IMG/VR virus record: IMGVR_UViG_3300030118_002460
Coordinates: 1 to 64,000 of that record
Length of the DNA stretch: 64,000 nucleotides
DNA from: a virus
Strand: one strand, 5' to 3'
The first letter of the stretch is position 1; every line of letters begins with the position of its first letter. The notes beneath the pieces are model-generated. The model worked only from the letters and a program-made list of their open reading frames with translations, made no database searches and had not been told where the DNA came from. The position numbers were made by a program, and so were the translations under genes. This document shows positions 122 through 5,165 of the stretch, in pieces.

Positions 122-343
122 ATGAAAAAAATTGCCCCAGAAAAATTGCTCCCTGAAAAGGTTTTTCACATTTACCTGAAAGATCAGTGCCTGGTTCCCA
201 ATGTACCAGAAGAACAATTCAGAGAAAAGTGGACTGAACTGCAAGGGATGGTGGGGTTAATGAAAACTGAGTATGAACTTGAAGATTTGTCATATGAATT
301 GGTAGAGAGAACCCCACCAAGTAATGAAGAGGATTCATATTGA
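122..343 (+). CDS. Small hypothetical protein (73 aa)
   Basis: I do not recognise a named family. The 73-residue product is soluble, mixed-charge and acidic toward its C-terminus, with no membrane segment or cysteine motif. It starts at the ATG at 122, 21 bases after a TATAAT box. Its stop codon (341-343) lies inside the -35 element of the next promoter, so it is probably transcribed separately from the genes that follow. Codon use matches its neighbours, which supports real coding. Similar short proteins occur in T4-like cyanophages as far as I recall, but no function can be given. Confidence 0.65.
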   Translation: MKKIAPEKLLPEKVFHIYLKDQCLVPNVPEEQFREKWTELQGMVGLMKTEYELEDLSYELVERTPPSNEEDSY

Positions 344-368
344 CATCTCATACATACTGAGATATAAT
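340..368 (+). promoter_or_regulatory. Perfect consensus sigma-70 promoter
   Basis: TTGACA (340-345), a 17-bp spacer, then TATAAT (363-368): both hexamers match the bacterial consensus exactly, at optimal spacing. The expected start is near 375, 17 bases before the ATG at 392. The spacer holds an inverted repeat, ATCTCA (345-350) and TGAGAT (358-363), which could be an operator. It should drive the accessory cluster at 392-2550 with unmodified host RNA polymerase, that is, early in infection. Confidence 0.85.
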
Positions 369-391: not shown

Positions 392-1165
392 ATGGCAAAA
401 GGATTTACTGTAAAAGCACAGAAACCCAAGGAGAAGAAACCAGAGTGGGATTATGATGCTATCAAAGCAAGGATGAAGGGAAAGGCAATTGTATTCTGTT
501 TGCCTGGAAGGGGGTGCAGTTATACATTCATGAAGAACTTTGTACAACTGTGCTTTGATCTAGTACAGAATGGAATGAGTATCCAAATCAGTCAGGACTA
601 TTCTTCCATGGTTAACTTTGCAAGATGCAAGTGCCTGGGGGCAAATGTATTGCGTGGACCTGATCAGAAACCTTGGGATGGTCAGTTGAATTATGATTAT
701 CAGTTGTGGATTGATAGTGATATTGTATTTGACAGTGCAAAGTTCTGGCAACTGTGTGATATGGCAATTGCAGAAGATGGTACACAGAGAGAGATTGTAG
801 CAGGTTGGTATTCCACTGAGGATGGTAGAACTACATCTGTTGCACACTGGTTGGATGAAGATGATTTCAGGAATAATGGTGGTGTCATGAATCATGAGAT
901 GGTTGATGGTATTACTAAGCGTAAGAAACCATTCACTGTGGATTACACAGGGTTTGGATGGGTGATGATTCAGAATGGTGTATTTGAGAATGAGAAGATG
1001 AAGTATCCTTGGTTTGCTCCCAAGATGCAAGTCTTTGAATCTGGTGCAGTACAGGATATGTGTGGAGAGGATGTTTCATTCTGTCTTGATGCTATTGAGG
1101 CAGGATATGACATCTGGTGTGATCCTAGGGTCAGAGTTGGTCATGAAAAGACAAGAGTTATTTGA
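392..1165 (+). CDS. Glycosyltransferase-like protein (GT-A fold type)
   Basis: Likely nucleotide-sugar-dependent glycosyltransferase of 257 residues. The segment around residues 105-113 reads LWIDSDIVF, an aspartate-rich DxD motif (D108, D110) after a hydrophobic strand, as in GT-A enzymes that bind a metal and sugar nucleotide. A conserved-looking GEDVSFC motif and a CDPRVRVGHEKT stretch near the C-terminus fit the acidic/His end of such folds. I chose the ATG at 392 because the TTG farther upstream would lie upstream of or at the predicted transcription start. The gene directly follows the consensus promoter and leads a run of five genes. The acceptor (virion protein, DNA or host envelope) cannot be told from sequence. 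Confidence 0.65.
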   Translation: MAKGFTVKAQKPKEKKPEWDYDAIKARMKGKAIVFCLPGRGCSYTFMKNFVQLCFDLVQNGMSIQISQDYSSMVNFARCKCLGANVLRGPDQKPWDGQLNYDYQLWIDSDIVFDSAKFWQLCDMAIAEDGTQREIVAGWYSTEDGRTTSVAHWLDEDDFRNNGGVMNHEMVDGITKRKKPFTVDYTGFGWVMIQNGVFENEKMKYPWFAPKMQVFESGAVQDMCGEDVSFCLDAIEAGYDIWCDPRVRVGHEKTRVI

Positions 1166-1166
1166 T

Positions 1167-1172
1167 AGGAGG
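1167..1172 (+). promoter_or_regulatory. Strong Shine-Dalgarno AGGAGG
   Basis: Perfect AGGAGG five bases before the ATG at 1178. It is one of very few full Shine-Dalgarno sequences in the window and validates the tiny 49-codon gene that follows. Confidence 0.75.
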
Positions 1173-1177
1173 TTATT

Positions 1178-1327
1178 ATGGCAAAAGTAAAGAAGTCACT
1201 GCAAGGCACAGCATTCATTGAATCCAGACCCAAGAAGTCTAGACAGGGGCAGGGGAAACATACAAAGTATGCTGCATCCAGCAGCAATACAGCAAAGAAG
1301 CGTTATAGGGGTCAAGGCAGAGGATGA
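1178..1327 (+). CDS. Tiny Lys/Arg-rich basic protein (49 aa)
   Basis: A 49-residue protein beginning MAKVKKSLQG and ending KKRYRGQGRG, with 9 Lys and 5 Arg and almost no hydrophobic core. A perfect AGGAGG precedes the ATG. Its stop overlaps the start of the SET-domain gene (ATGA at 1324-1327), so the two are probably translated as a coupled pair. The composition (SRPKKSRQGQGKHTKY) resembles nucleic-acid-binding or ribosomal-protein tails. I recall similar very short basic proteins in other marine T4-like phages but know no function. Possible roles are nucleic-acid binding, host ribosome or nucleoid interaction, or serving as substrate of the adjacent methyltransferase (inference). Confidence 0.8.
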   Translation: MAKVKKSLQGTAFIESRPKKSRQGQGKHTKYAASSSNTAKKRYRGQGRG

Positions 1328-1698
1328 GTTTCTCCTTGTCACTATACACCTACCTCTCACCTTCTAAGGTTTGTGATGGGGTGGGTGTTTTTTCTTTGGT
1401 ACATATACCTGCTGATACTTTGATCTTTAAATCAAAAAATGCGCAAAAAATCCGCTGGGGGGAAGTCCCAGAGGAAGTGAGAGGGGCAATGAGAAACTTG
1501 ACTTATTATGATAAGGATGGTTTCTGGGTTGATGATGACCTGGATAGACTAGGTGCTCAATATTATATTAACCACTCACTTACACCTAATGTGTCCTATA
1601 ATAAGGACAATGGTTGTCTTTATGCTACTAGGGACATCAAACCTCATGAAGAACTACTAGACTACTACTATCCCAATGAGAGAGAATGGCTTACTTAA
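1324..1698 (+). CDS. SET-domain protein (putative protein lysine methyltransferase)
   Basis: A 124-residue minimal SET domain. Visible motifs are the N-terminal GVGVFSLVHIPADTLIF (residues 19-35), the cofactor-binding pseudoknot motif NHSLTPN (83-89), and the EELLDYYY motif (109-116) that normally supplies the catalytic Tyr. SET enzymes move a methyl group from S-adenosylmethionine to a protein lysine. The fold is rare in phages and commoner in eukaryotes and some bacteria. There is no pre-SET or post-SET cysteine cluster, so this is a bare core. The start overlaps the stop of the 49-residue basic protein, and the 3' end overlaps the next gene by 13 bases. The cotranscribed Lys-rich peptide is an obvious candidate substrate, but this is inference. 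Confidence 0.85.
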   Translation: MSFSLSLYTYLSPSKVCDGVGVFSLVHIPADTLIFKSKNAQKIRWGEVPEEVRGAMRNLTYYDKDGFWVDDDLDRLGAQYYINHSLTPNVSYNKDNGCLYATRDIKPHEELLDYYYPNEREWLT

Positions 1699-2360
1699 AT
1701 CACAGTTTACCTGATTGGTCTTGTTACATTCGTAATGAGTTCCTGTTTAATCACAAGAAAGGGCATGGGGAATTCACTAGATGTGATGTTCACTCTGTTG
1801 CTAGTATGGAGAAACGTGTCCCTCTGTTTGAGGCATTTCTGGAAAATGGAGTCAACTGGACACGTAGACCTCTTCATGCCTTTTGCTGGCATACTGATGC
1901 CCCTCTGGAACCATTAGAGGACATTATGTACTGGGACTGCTTCTCTCCTTATGTTGATGTACAAAGGAGACATAGATTAGCAGGTCTTGAAGCAGAACTG
2001 ATTCGTCCTGACAATAAGAAAGTCAAAGGGTCTTATATGTGGACTTTGGACTGGTCATGGGAGAACAAGAGTGTGCCTGACTTGAACTTCTCTGAAACAC
2101 CAGAACATAAGTGTGCCCATTTGTTCAAGATGGACAATGGTAACTATTATGCATATCCTAATAATAGAATCATCTGGTATGATAATGCATGGACCTTCAA
2201 CAGGATTGATAAGAACCCTGGATATGAGATTGACCTTACAGTGTATAGTGTAGAAAACAAGCGAAGGATTGAAACATCAGATCATTACATGTATGAGGTT
2301 ACTCAATTAGACAATGAAGTTATGGCTCAACAAATAGATAGTAAAGTAATGAGAGGTTAA
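1686..2360 (+). CDS. Hypothetical protein (224 aa)
   Basis: No family recognised. The product is soluble and rich in aromatic residues (many W, Y, F and H), with aromatic clusters near residues 65-90 and 110-130. It has no signal peptide or membrane segment. It starts at an ATG overlapping the SET-domain gene by 13 bases and ends one base before the next ATG, so it belongs to the same early operon. Composition and codon use match the surrounding phage genes. The many aromatics suggest a beta-rich fold, possibly carbohydrate-binding or oxygenase-like, but no diagnostic motif was found. Confidence 0.7.
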   Translation: MAYLNHSLPDWSCYIRNEFLFNHKKGHGEFTRCDVHSVASMEKRVPLFEAFLENGVNWTRRPLHAFCWHTDAPLEPLEDIMYWDCFSPYVDVQRRHRLAGLEAELIRPDNKKVKGSYMWTLDWSWENKSVPDLNFSETPEHKCAHLFKMDNGNYYAYPNNRIIWYDNAWTFNRIDKNPGYEIDLTVYSVENKRRIETSDHYMYEVTQLDNEVMAQQIDSKVMRG

Positions 2361-2361
2361 C

Positions 2362-2550
2362 ATGCATGATTTTCTGGACAACCTAGCAAATGATCAGCAT
2401 CAGAAGATGTTGCGTGAGATTGCTAATGATGGTCTCACTCCAAAAAACAGGGTGAAAAGAAATACTGATGGTTTATTTGAAACCACTGATTGTTCTCATC
2501 CTGACCATGAATGTACCTGTGGTCAGAAGAATATATTAATTGAAGATTAG
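2362..2550 (+). CDS. Small protein with Cys/His cluster (62 aa)
   Basis: A 62-residue protein ending in a compact Cys/His-rich segment (CSHPDHECTCGQ, about residues 44-55) that could bind one zinc ion. The N-terminal half is helical and charged (MHDFLDNLANDQHQKMLREI). It starts two bases after the upstream stop, and its own stop is followed within a few bases by the late promoter of gp25, so it closes the early cluster. Function unknown. Confidence 0.65.
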   Translation: MHDFLDNLANDQHQKMLREIANDGLTPKNRVKRNTDGLFETTDCSHPDHECTCGQKNILIED

Positions 2551-2554
2551 TGTA

Positions 2555-2561
2555 CTAAATA
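2555..2561 (+). promoter_or_regulatory. Late promoter box CTAAATA (gp25 unit)
   Basis: CTAAATA 21 bases before the GTG start of gp25. It matches the recurring late box of this phage and the core of the T4 late -10 element TATAAATA read by gp55. Confidence 0.6.
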
Positions 2562-2582: not shown

Positions 2583-2984
2583 GTGCCTGTTCAAAGGGTC
2601 AGTAAACCATTTAAGGATATAAGTGCTACATTTCAGATCAATCCAGTTAATCGCGACTTGATTGGATTGACTAATGCAAATGCTATTGCACGCTCTGTCC
2701 GTAACCTGGTTTTAACTGGTCCTGGTGAAAGACCCTTTGCTCCTGCATTAGGGTCTCAGGTCAATCAACTCTTATTTGATGTTGTTGATTCTCTCACTGC
2801 AAAAAATATTGATTTTGAAATTAGAAATACTATTGAAAATTATGAACCCAGAGTTGAACTGATTGATGTCATTGTCAAACCAAATGCTGATAACAATGCA
2901 TTTGACGTGAAGATTCAGTATGAAATTATTGGTATTAATGCACAACAACAAGAACTCACCTTTGCATTAGAACCCACTAGGTAA
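2583..2984 (+). CDS. gp25: Baseplate wedge protein gp25
   Basis: T4 gp25-like baseplate wedge subunit, related to the TssE sheath-initiator family of contractile machines. It joins gp6 and gp53 and helps start sheath polymerisation. Recognisable are the N-terminal FKDISATFQINP region, the TGPGERPFAPALGSQVNQLLFD core (about residues 45-66, containing the family's conserved E-R-P-F and G-S), and the DVKIQYEI strand near the C-terminus. At 133 residues it matches T4 gp25 (132). The start is GTG: the product contains no internal Met that could serve instead, and the late box sits 21 bases upstream. It directly abuts gp6, as expected for wedge partners. Confidence 0.9.
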   Translation: MPVQRVSKPFKDISATFQINPVNRDLIGLTNANAIARSVRNLVLTGPGERPFAPALGSQVNQLLFDVVDSLTAKNIDFEIRNTIENYEPRVELIDVIVKPNADNNAFDVKIQYEIIGINAQQQELTFALEPTR

Positions 2985-5165
2985 ATGCCTTTAGTTAATT
3001 TCAGCAACTTAGATTTTGATCAGATAAAAACGTCCATCAAGGACTACCTTCGTGCGAACTCAAACTTCACTGATTATGATTATGAAGGATCTAATCTATC
3101 TACCATTATAGACGTCCTTGCCTATAACACTTATATCACCTCATATAACGCCAATATGGTGACTAATGAGGTGTTCATTGATGGAGCAACATTGAGAGAG
3201 AATGTTGTTTCATTAGCAAGAAACATAGGTTATGTGCCTAAGTCAAGGAATGCATCAAAGTCAAAGATATCCTTCACTGTTGATACAACAGGCACCACAG
3301 CAGTTGCTGTGACCCTTAGGAGAGGCATTGTAGCAACATCCTCCAATAGGTTCACAAACACATCTTTTGTGTTCTCTATCCCTGATGACATCACAGTTCC
3401 AGTGGATAGTAATAATCTTGCACTGTTTAATGCTATTGATGTTTATGAGGGCACACACCTCACACAGACATTTAATGTAAGTTCCAGGACACCTAATCAG
3501 AAGTATATCCTCAAGAACAGTGGAATTGATACTGATCTGATTACTGTATCAGTAAGAGAGTCTCCCACATCAACTATTACAAGAGTTTACAAACAGTTCA
3601 ATAGTTTGTATGAAGTAGATGATAAGTCACCAGTCTATTTCCTGCAAGAAATTAATGATGAGAGATATGAACTGTTGTTTGGTGATGGTATATTTGGTAT
3701 CAAGTTGCAGGAACCTAATGTTGTAGAAGTAGGTTATATTACATCAGGTGGTGAAACTGGTAATGGTATTAATGAATTTACCTTTGCTGGTCAATTAGTA
3801 GATAACAATGGTGCTCCTATTACTAGTGGCATTTCACTGATTAATGCAGATCAAACATCCTTTGGTGGTTCTGCTATTGAATCTGTTGAGTCTATCAAGA
3901 AGAATGCTCCACAGATCTATGCATCACAGAATCGTGCTGTGACAGCAGCAGACTATGAGGTATTGATTCCTAGAATTTATCCTGAAGCAGAATCTGTTTC
4001 TGCTTTTGGTGGTGAGGAACTTTCACCTCCACAGTATGGTAAGGTCTTTATCAGTGTGAAACCAGAGAATGGTGTTCACCTTTCCACTACTATTAAAGAA
4101 GATATTAGCAGAGAACTGAGGAAGTTCTCTGTTGCAGGTATTGTAAGTGAAATTGTTGACCTGAAGTATCTGTATATTGAGACTGACTCTTATGTTTATT
4201 ACAATGAGAACAAGGCACCTTCTTCCAGTGTAGTTCAATCATTAGTCACTAGTAACATTGGTGCTTATGCTAGATCCACTGAGATGAATAAGTTTGGTGC
4301 TAGATTTAAGTATTCCAAGTATCAGAAGATTATTGATGATACTCATCAGTCTATCACATCTAACATCACCACAGTTCAGATCAGAAGGGATATGGAACCT
4401 GCTCTGAATGCATTTGCAGAGTATGAACTTTGCTTTGGTAATAGATTCTTTATTAAGAACCATGGACATGGAACTCATGGTGGGCAGATTGGATTCAATA
4501 TTAAGTCATCTGCATTTAGAGTAAGTGGTATTGCTGATACACTATACCTGGGTGATAGTCCTGACAAGACTCTTGCAAAGGGTAGATTGTTCTTGTTCAA
4601 ACTTAATTCAGCAACTGAACCAGTCATTGTAAAACAAAATGTTGGAATGATTGATTATCTTAAAGGTGAACTCAAATTGAACCCAATTAAGTTCGTTTCT
4701 ACTAGCGTAAATAGAGGCACACCCCTTATTGAAGTATCTGCTGTCCCATATTCAAATGATGTTATAGGTCTCCAAGATCTGTATTTGCAACTAGACACAA
4801 ATAATGTTTCAGTCAGTGCTGTATCAGATCAAATTGCATCTGGAGATGATATCTCAGGTAGTAATTACATTGTAACTTCCAGTTACTCAAATGGCTCCCT
4901 GGTCAGAGGAACACCCATCTTAACAGTCAAGAAACCCACAGCAGCTGATACTGACACTACATTGCTTGCAGATGCAACAGATGTTGATAGAACCACAAGA
5001 GTTACTGTCACAACTGGCACAGCAGGTCAATCACAGTCAACTGTCTACACAACAACTTCTAATACTGCAACAAACACAAGCAGTACTACTAGTAGCACTC
5101 CCTCTGGTGGCAGTTCTTCATCTGGTGGCAGTTCTTCATCATCGCCCACTTCATACTCCTATTAA
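2985..5165 (+). CDS. gp6: Baseplate wedge subunit gp6
   Basis: T4 gp6-like (baseplate J family) wedge protein; two copies per wedge form the inner ring around the hub. It has the expected N-terminus (NFSNLDFDQIKTSIKDYLR) followed by NLSTIIDVLAYNTYITSYNANM, typical of gp6/BaseplateJ proteins. At 726 residues it is longer than T4 gp6 (660). The extra length includes a C-terminal tail of almost pure Ser/Thr/Gly (about residues 670-722) that looks disordered. ATG follows the gp25 stop with no gap. The low-complexity tail may be a flexible tether or a site of fibre attachment (inference). Confidence 0.9.
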   Translation: MPLVNFSNLDFDQIKTSIKDYLRANSNFTDYDYEGSNLSTIIDVLAYNTYITSYNANMVTNEVFIDGATLRENVVSLARNIGYVPKSRNASKSKISFTVDTTGTTAVAVTLRRGIVATSSNRFTNTSFVFSIPDDITVPVDSNNLALFNAIDVYEGTHLTQTFNVSSRTPNQKYILKNSGIDTDLITVSVRESPTSTITRVYKQFNSLYEVDDKSPVYFLQEINDERYELLFGDGIFGIKLQEPNVVEVGYITSGGETGNGINEFTFAGQLVDNNGAPITSGISLINADQTSFGGSAIESVESIKKNAPQIYASQNRAVTAADYEVLIPRIYPEAESVSAFGGEELSPPQYGKVFISVKPENGVHLSTTIKEDISRELRKFSVAGIVSEIVDLKYLYIETDSYVYYNENKAPSSSVVQSLVTSNIGAYARSTEMNKFGARFKYSKYQKIIDDTHQSITSNITTVQIRRDMEPALNAFAEYELCFGNRFFIKNHGHGTHGGQIGFNIKSSAFRVSGIADTLYLGDSPDKTLAKGRLFLFKLNSATEPVIVKQNVGMIDYLKGELKLNPIKFVSTSVNRGTPLIEVSAVPYSNDVIGLQDLYLQLDTNNVSVSAVSDQIASGDDISGSNYIVTSSYSNGSLVRGTPILTVKKPTAADTDTTLLADATDVDRTTRVTVTTGTAGQSQSTVYTTTSNTATNTSSTTSSTPSGGSSSSGGSSSSSPTSYSY

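Follow-up and report, generated by a model that had tools for sequence, protein, structure and literature searches.

A minimal SET-domain protein of a marine cyanophage and its conserved neighbour P3704

It is already known that small SET proteins are annotated in cyanophage records and that vSET of the chlorovirus PBCV-1 (PDB 3kma), a histone H3K27 methyltransferase of about 120 amino acids, is a minimal viral SET enzyme. PMC7019647 calls vSET the smallest of the histone methyltransferases. The structural model of the phage SET protein presented here is likewise minimal and matches vSET with a Foldseek E-value of 2.1e-5 and a TM-score of 0.65 normalised to vSET, but the two share only 16% identity, and vSET belongs to a virus of eukaryotic algae and targets histone H3, whereas our protein comes from a bacteriophage. 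The host of this phage is presumably a cyanobacterium, which, unlike the host of vSET, has no histones. For vSET we know of no P3704 partner, P3704 being the protein (phrog_3704) that is encoded next to SET in the phage. The best fold match of the phage protein is Set7 of S. pombe (PDB 5h6z; Foldseek E 6.8e-7, probability 1.00), and lysine methyltransferases of the Set7, MLL3 and SET7/9 types were also found by a profile search. These differ from the phage protein in being eukaryotic, with about 25% identity and with histone or other protein targets.

The nearest precedent for a SET enzyme paired with a small substrate is Go1-SET of Methanosarcina mazei, a prokaryotic SET protein which is reported to methylate the small DNA-associated nucleoid protein MC1-alpha (Manzur and Zhou 2005, cited in PMC6776556). 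Go1-SET is archaeal and cellular, and it further differs from our case in that the small basic protein of the phage is not tied to SET. Closer in sequence are proteins of the Synechococcus phages Sf-CH1b, S-B05, S-B43, RB11-B, RN05-S and SynMITS9220M01, which belong to the same SET subfamily (49-61% identity) and whose genes adjoin P3704, as here. These entries are annotations only and read SET domain methyltransferase, methyltransferase or hypothetical.

In the open-access literature we found no paper on the cyanophage SET gene, and within the literature searched the linkage of SET to P3704 appears to be undescribed. Protein-lysine methylation by enzymes of bacteriophages appears to be little studied. 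A SET subfamily that is nearly always found beside P3704 offers a concrete and testable partner, and isolates carrying SET exist; for one of them, S-B43, biochemistry on another enzyme has been published (PMC12783734). We propose that the phage SET protein is an active, early lysine methyltransferase with a functional link to P3704, which it would methylate or by which it would be directed, and we give this reading a probability of about one half (0.5).

Layout and promoters of the SET operon

The window that was analysed is a stretch of 64,000 nucleotides from an 86-kb IMG/VR virus record, which derives from a marine T4-like cyanophage with baseplate genes (gp25 is identified by its Pfam and PHROG matches, and gp6 by comparing the gene order with that of annotated phages). 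The operon runs in the order glycosyltransferase-like gene, basic ORF, SET and P3704 (Table 1). The first product matches best to phrog_1574, which carries the label 'unknown function', and its name follows the weaker match to phrog_34859, a glycosyltransferase family. The interval that was singled out by the sequence-only reading, 392-1698, also spans this 257-aa gene (392-1165), which was not mentioned there, and it leaves out the ORF at 1686-2360 that overlaps the 3' end of SET.

Table 1. Positions of the features at the SET locus, numbered from the first letter of the window
Feature	Position	Strand	Basis or remark
Consensus sigma-70 promoter (TTGACA-17-TATAAT) preceding the operon	340..368	+	12/12 match
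Glycosyltransferase-like protein, 257 aa, operon gene 1	392..1165	+	phrog_1574 E 4.5e-117; phrog_34859 E 1.3e-7
Shine-Dalgarno AGGAGG of the basic ORF	1167..1172	+	5 nt before ATG at 1178
Lys/Arg-rich protein, 49 aa, phrog_516, widespread in cyanomyoviruses	1178..1327	+	phrog_516 E 4.3e-24
Minimal SET-domain protein, 124 aa, candidate protein-lysine methyltransferase	1324..1698	+	PF00856, fold model, invariant motifs
P3704 (phrog_3704), 224 aa, conserved partner, shares 13 nt with the 3' end of SET	1686..2360	+	phrog_3704 E 5.5e-53
Conserved ORF, 62 aa, final gene ahead of the baseplate cluster	2362..2550	+	
CTAAATA, late-promoter-like, 28 nt before gp25, end of the early-type operon	2555..2561	+	Resembles S-PM2 late promoter
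gp25 (baseplate wedge), a structural gene adjacent to the operon	2583..2984	+	PF04965 E 2.4e-15

A consensus promoter had been claimed for this locus, and the claim holds: the site agrees at all twelve positions and is the only perfect one in the 6 kb scanned. It stands before the glycosyltransferase-like gene. In the related loci listed, this site is kept 51-67 nt upstream of the same gene, and therefore it is not a chance match.

Downstream, the motif CTAAATA resembles the late promoter of phage S-PM2, NATAAATA (PMC2984593). The window contains ten copies, all on the + strand, and this total equals chance expectation. Seven of the ten precede a gene start by 20-45 nt (2555, 26925, 29815, 38365, 43234, 47157 and 48466), a number that was reached in none of 20,000 random draws, and this placement is as would be expected of a late promoter motif. 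Since a host-type promoter lies ahead of the SET operon and CTAAATA precedes gp25, the SET operon looks early and the baseplate genes look late, as far as promoter motifs can indicate timing. SET would thus be transcribed early, from a host-type promoter, within the operon of the glycosyltransferase-like gene, the basic ORF, SET and P3704.

The SET protein and its predicted fold

The 124-aa ORF had been recognised from its letters as a minimal SET enzyme, and our analysis agrees, with the predicted fold and the catalytic motifs intact: NHSLTPN occupies residues 83-89 and EELLDYYY residues 109-116. The ATGA overlap is likewise as it was read, the start codon of SET sharing positions 1324-1327 with the TGA of the preceding basic ORF. 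The protein matches the Pfam family PF00856 with an E-value of 6.1e-12, and its score of 46.3 bits is well above the curated cut-off, which is 22.4. An AlphaFold2 model built from 30 homologues has a mean pLDDT of 79.6, with residues 71-78 as a low-confidence stretch. In Foldseek this model gives 157 matches in the PDB at E up to 0.001, and among the 50 matches listed all are SET or PR domain structures with a probability of 1.00, including S. pombe Set7, PFL0690c and MLL3, with chlorovirus vSET in thirteenth place. The TM-scores of the PDB matches are moderate (0.53-0.62).

In the 30 homologues, down to 27% identity, the residues P13, S14, V16, C17, G19, V20, G21, F23, N83, H84, N89, E110, Y115 and W122 are invariant. 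The AdoMet motif GxG, the NH....N motif, the E-x4-Y motif and the C-terminal Trp are thereby conserved. Y115, five residues past E110, takes the position that the catalytic tyrosine has in SET enzymes. Because the motifs are invariant over 30 diverse homologues, the catalytic site appears to be under purifying selection, and from the fold match together with these motifs we predict that the enzyme is very probably active. The product of the SET ORF would then be a phage-specific and catalytically competent protein-lysine methyltransferase, minimal in size like vSET. A single scan of GTDB genome contigs for the conserved motif PSKVC[DG]GVG found no SET relative carrying it, and as far as this one motif can tell, the subfamily looks virus-specific.

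Linkage between SET and P3704

The constant companion of SET is P3704 and not the basic ORF. P3704 was detected in 129 of 132 SET loci, a count in which some contigs were fetched twice, so that the distinct contigs are fewer. One of the three loci in which P3704 was not detected starts at a contig edge (L056), and the other two (L057 and L058) carry a divergent subfamily of 162 aa. Among phage records the SET gene occurs in seven, and all seven have P3704 at the SET locus. The two genes usually overlap, by 13 nt when P3704 is of type A (also in the distant loci L044 and L045) and by 4 nt when it is of type B, the exceptions being L035 and L039, in which the genes stand about 480 nt apart. The order can also be reversed, with P3704 preceding SET and again overlapping it (L046-L049, L051-L054 and most of L194-L203). 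In seven P3704-SET contigs of this kind, which were searched whole, neither T4 gp23 nor phrog_516 was detected, and both were detected in two T4-like control contigs; since the seven are fragments of 10-64 kb, the absence is no proof. Among contigs in which gp23 and the basic ORF were not detected, SET and P3704 are adjacent in both orders.

The dependence is one-way: SET is nearly always found with P3704, and P3704 is often found without SET. SET was not seen in 57 of 85 P3704 loci and in 67 of 71 further loci, some of them with little upstream sequence, and homologues of P3704 were found in 112 phage records. As P3704 is far commoner than SET, it must have a function of its own, to which SET is optional. 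When presence of SET is placed on the P3704 tree, eight changes are needed against 37 expected if the labels are shuffled, and at least five are forced by well-supported branches. SET presence is therefore clustered, yet SET was gained or lost several times. Over 74 loci the distances of SET correlate with those of P3704 with an r of 0.71, against 0.31-0.35 for the basic ORF, gp25 and gp6, but within type A the correlation with P3704 is 0.30 and does not exceed that with the other neighbours, so that the overall value mostly reflects the split between types A and B. The link to P3704 is also confined in scope, since the SET proteins of L204-L230 have no P3704, which makes it a property of the subfamily of the 124-aa protein.

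The main rival explanation is that the target of SET is a host protein, such as a ribosomal, nucleoid or photosynthetic one, and that P3704 is adjacent merely through inheritance in a conserved early operon. It is a possible explanation, if a rather unlikely one. The gene order around gp25 is strongly syntenic in T4-like cyanophages, so neighbouring genes can hitch-hike; an early-type promoter would suit a takeover of the host, and the chlorovirus vSET acts on a host protein, histone H3 (PMC7019647). However, the adjacency of SET and P3704 persists in reversed order and in contigs that lack the other operon genes, which simple hitch-hiking fails to explain, and no host protein is indicated by our data. 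A role together with P3704 is the reading that we prefer. SET would either methylate P3704 or reach its target through it. When the P3704 sequences of loci with and without SET were compared, no lysine specific to the SET-bearing loci was found.

Candidate roles of P3704 and of the basic protein

In databases P3704 is labelled PurM, phosphoribosylaminoimidazole synthetase or ferredoxin, and phrog_3704 itself is labelled ferredoxin. No PurM or ferredoxin profile matched it in Pfam (22 homologues scanned) or in NCBIfam (two homologues scanned). The label therefore looks wrong and seems, on the profile evidence, to be a propagated misannotation. The correction matters because surveys count phage purM as a purine-synthesis host gene. 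One such survey is PMC9983427, whose purM may or may not be P3704. Searches of P3704 against Pfam, NCBIfam, PDB sequences and PADLOC gave no meaningful match. The Pelagibacter phage HTVC008M (L151) has a P3704 homologue at 3001-3648, with the genes for the alpha and beta subunits of ribonucleotide reductase on either side.

The structural model of P3704, with a mean pLDDT of 66.8, allows one suggestion as to its role. Its best Foldseek match in the PDB is the tandem Tudor domain of SETDB1 (E 0.023, probability 0.96), followed at lower ranks by Spindlin, RDM15, PHF1/PHF19, 53BP1 and PWWP domains. One hypothesis is accordingly that SET writes a methyl-lysine mark and a Tudor-like P3704 reads it, which we hold to be improbable. 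The SETDB1 match has a TM-score of only 0.22, no PDB match reaches an E-value of 0.001, and the same list includes other small beta-barrels such as YorP and subunits of photosystem I and of the ribosome. Moreover, Pfam gives no Tudor family match, and P3704 mostly occurs without SET. An internal duplication, as a tandem Tudor would have, was also looked for and rejected, since the profile comparison gave a probability of 1.6% and no repeat was detectable. From the weak scores, the other beta-barrels and the missing repeat it follows that a Tudor-type methyl-lysine reader is a lead only. The fuller version, in which SET marks a phage or host protein and a tandem Tudor-like P3704 recognises that mark, we consider more improbable still; if it were true, bacterial viruses would have, in SET and P3704, a signalling pair of the kind known from chromatin.

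Another hypothesis, which was proposed in the sequence-only reading, is that SET methylates the Lys/Arg-rich protein with which it is co-translated. Several of its premises are sound. The basic ORF has 9 Lys and 5 Arg among its 49 residues (28.6%), the AGGAGG ahead of it is perfect, it is present in 110 of the 132 SET loci, and the ATGA overlap is found here and in many relatives. Nevertheless, we hold such an enzyme-substrate pair to be very improbable and have dropped it as the leading idea. Matches to phrog_516 occur in 435 phage records, mostly of Synechococcus and Prochlorococcus phages, as against seven with SET, and the basic ORF therefore does not depend on SET; near gp25 it is found without SET in S-SSM5, ACG-2014a and ACG-2014b. 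Conversely, SET loci that lack the basic ORF include L018 and L030, both with ample sequence on the upstream side, as well as L044-L049 and L051-L054, among them non-T4-like contigs. Constant co-occurrence is thus contradicted by the genomes compared, which show the frequent separation that the sequence-only reading had itself named as evidence against the pair. Nor is the distance between the two genes fixed, as it ranges from -4 to about +147 nt. The two invariant lysines of the basic protein, K19 and K41, show 100% conservation both in SET-bearing loci and in those that lack SET, and the comparison of such loci revealed no SET-specific conserved lysine. What survives of the earlier interpretation is the minimal SET enzyme, the overlapping genes and the conserved host-type promoter, but not the basic protein as a dedicated substrate, and nothing that we observed calls for histone-tail mimicry. 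The 49-aa protein would rather be an independent cyanophage protein that lies upstream by happenstance. Two misleading leads are hereby corrected: that the basic protein is the substrate, and that a gene common in cyanophages is PurM or ferredoxin, as it has been labelled.

The least probable explanation that we considered is an inactive SET protein, serving purely as a structural or binding module, which would fit its being optional among close relatives and the change of the canonical RFINHSC to YYINHSx, but which is opposed by a catalytic Tyr, an NH motif and a GxG that are invariant in homologues as low as 27% in identity.

Other SET proteins were also seen in viruses. A second viral subfamily of about 160 aa (L204-L219), in most of whose loci the SET match lies around 3001, has a conserved neighbourhood of its own, with a transporter-like and a beta-barrel-like protein upstream and no P3704. 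Further small phage SET proteins (L221-L230) carry a SKIHGVGVFAIRDIPKGT-type motif, and the phage SET proteins therefore fall into several distinct groups.
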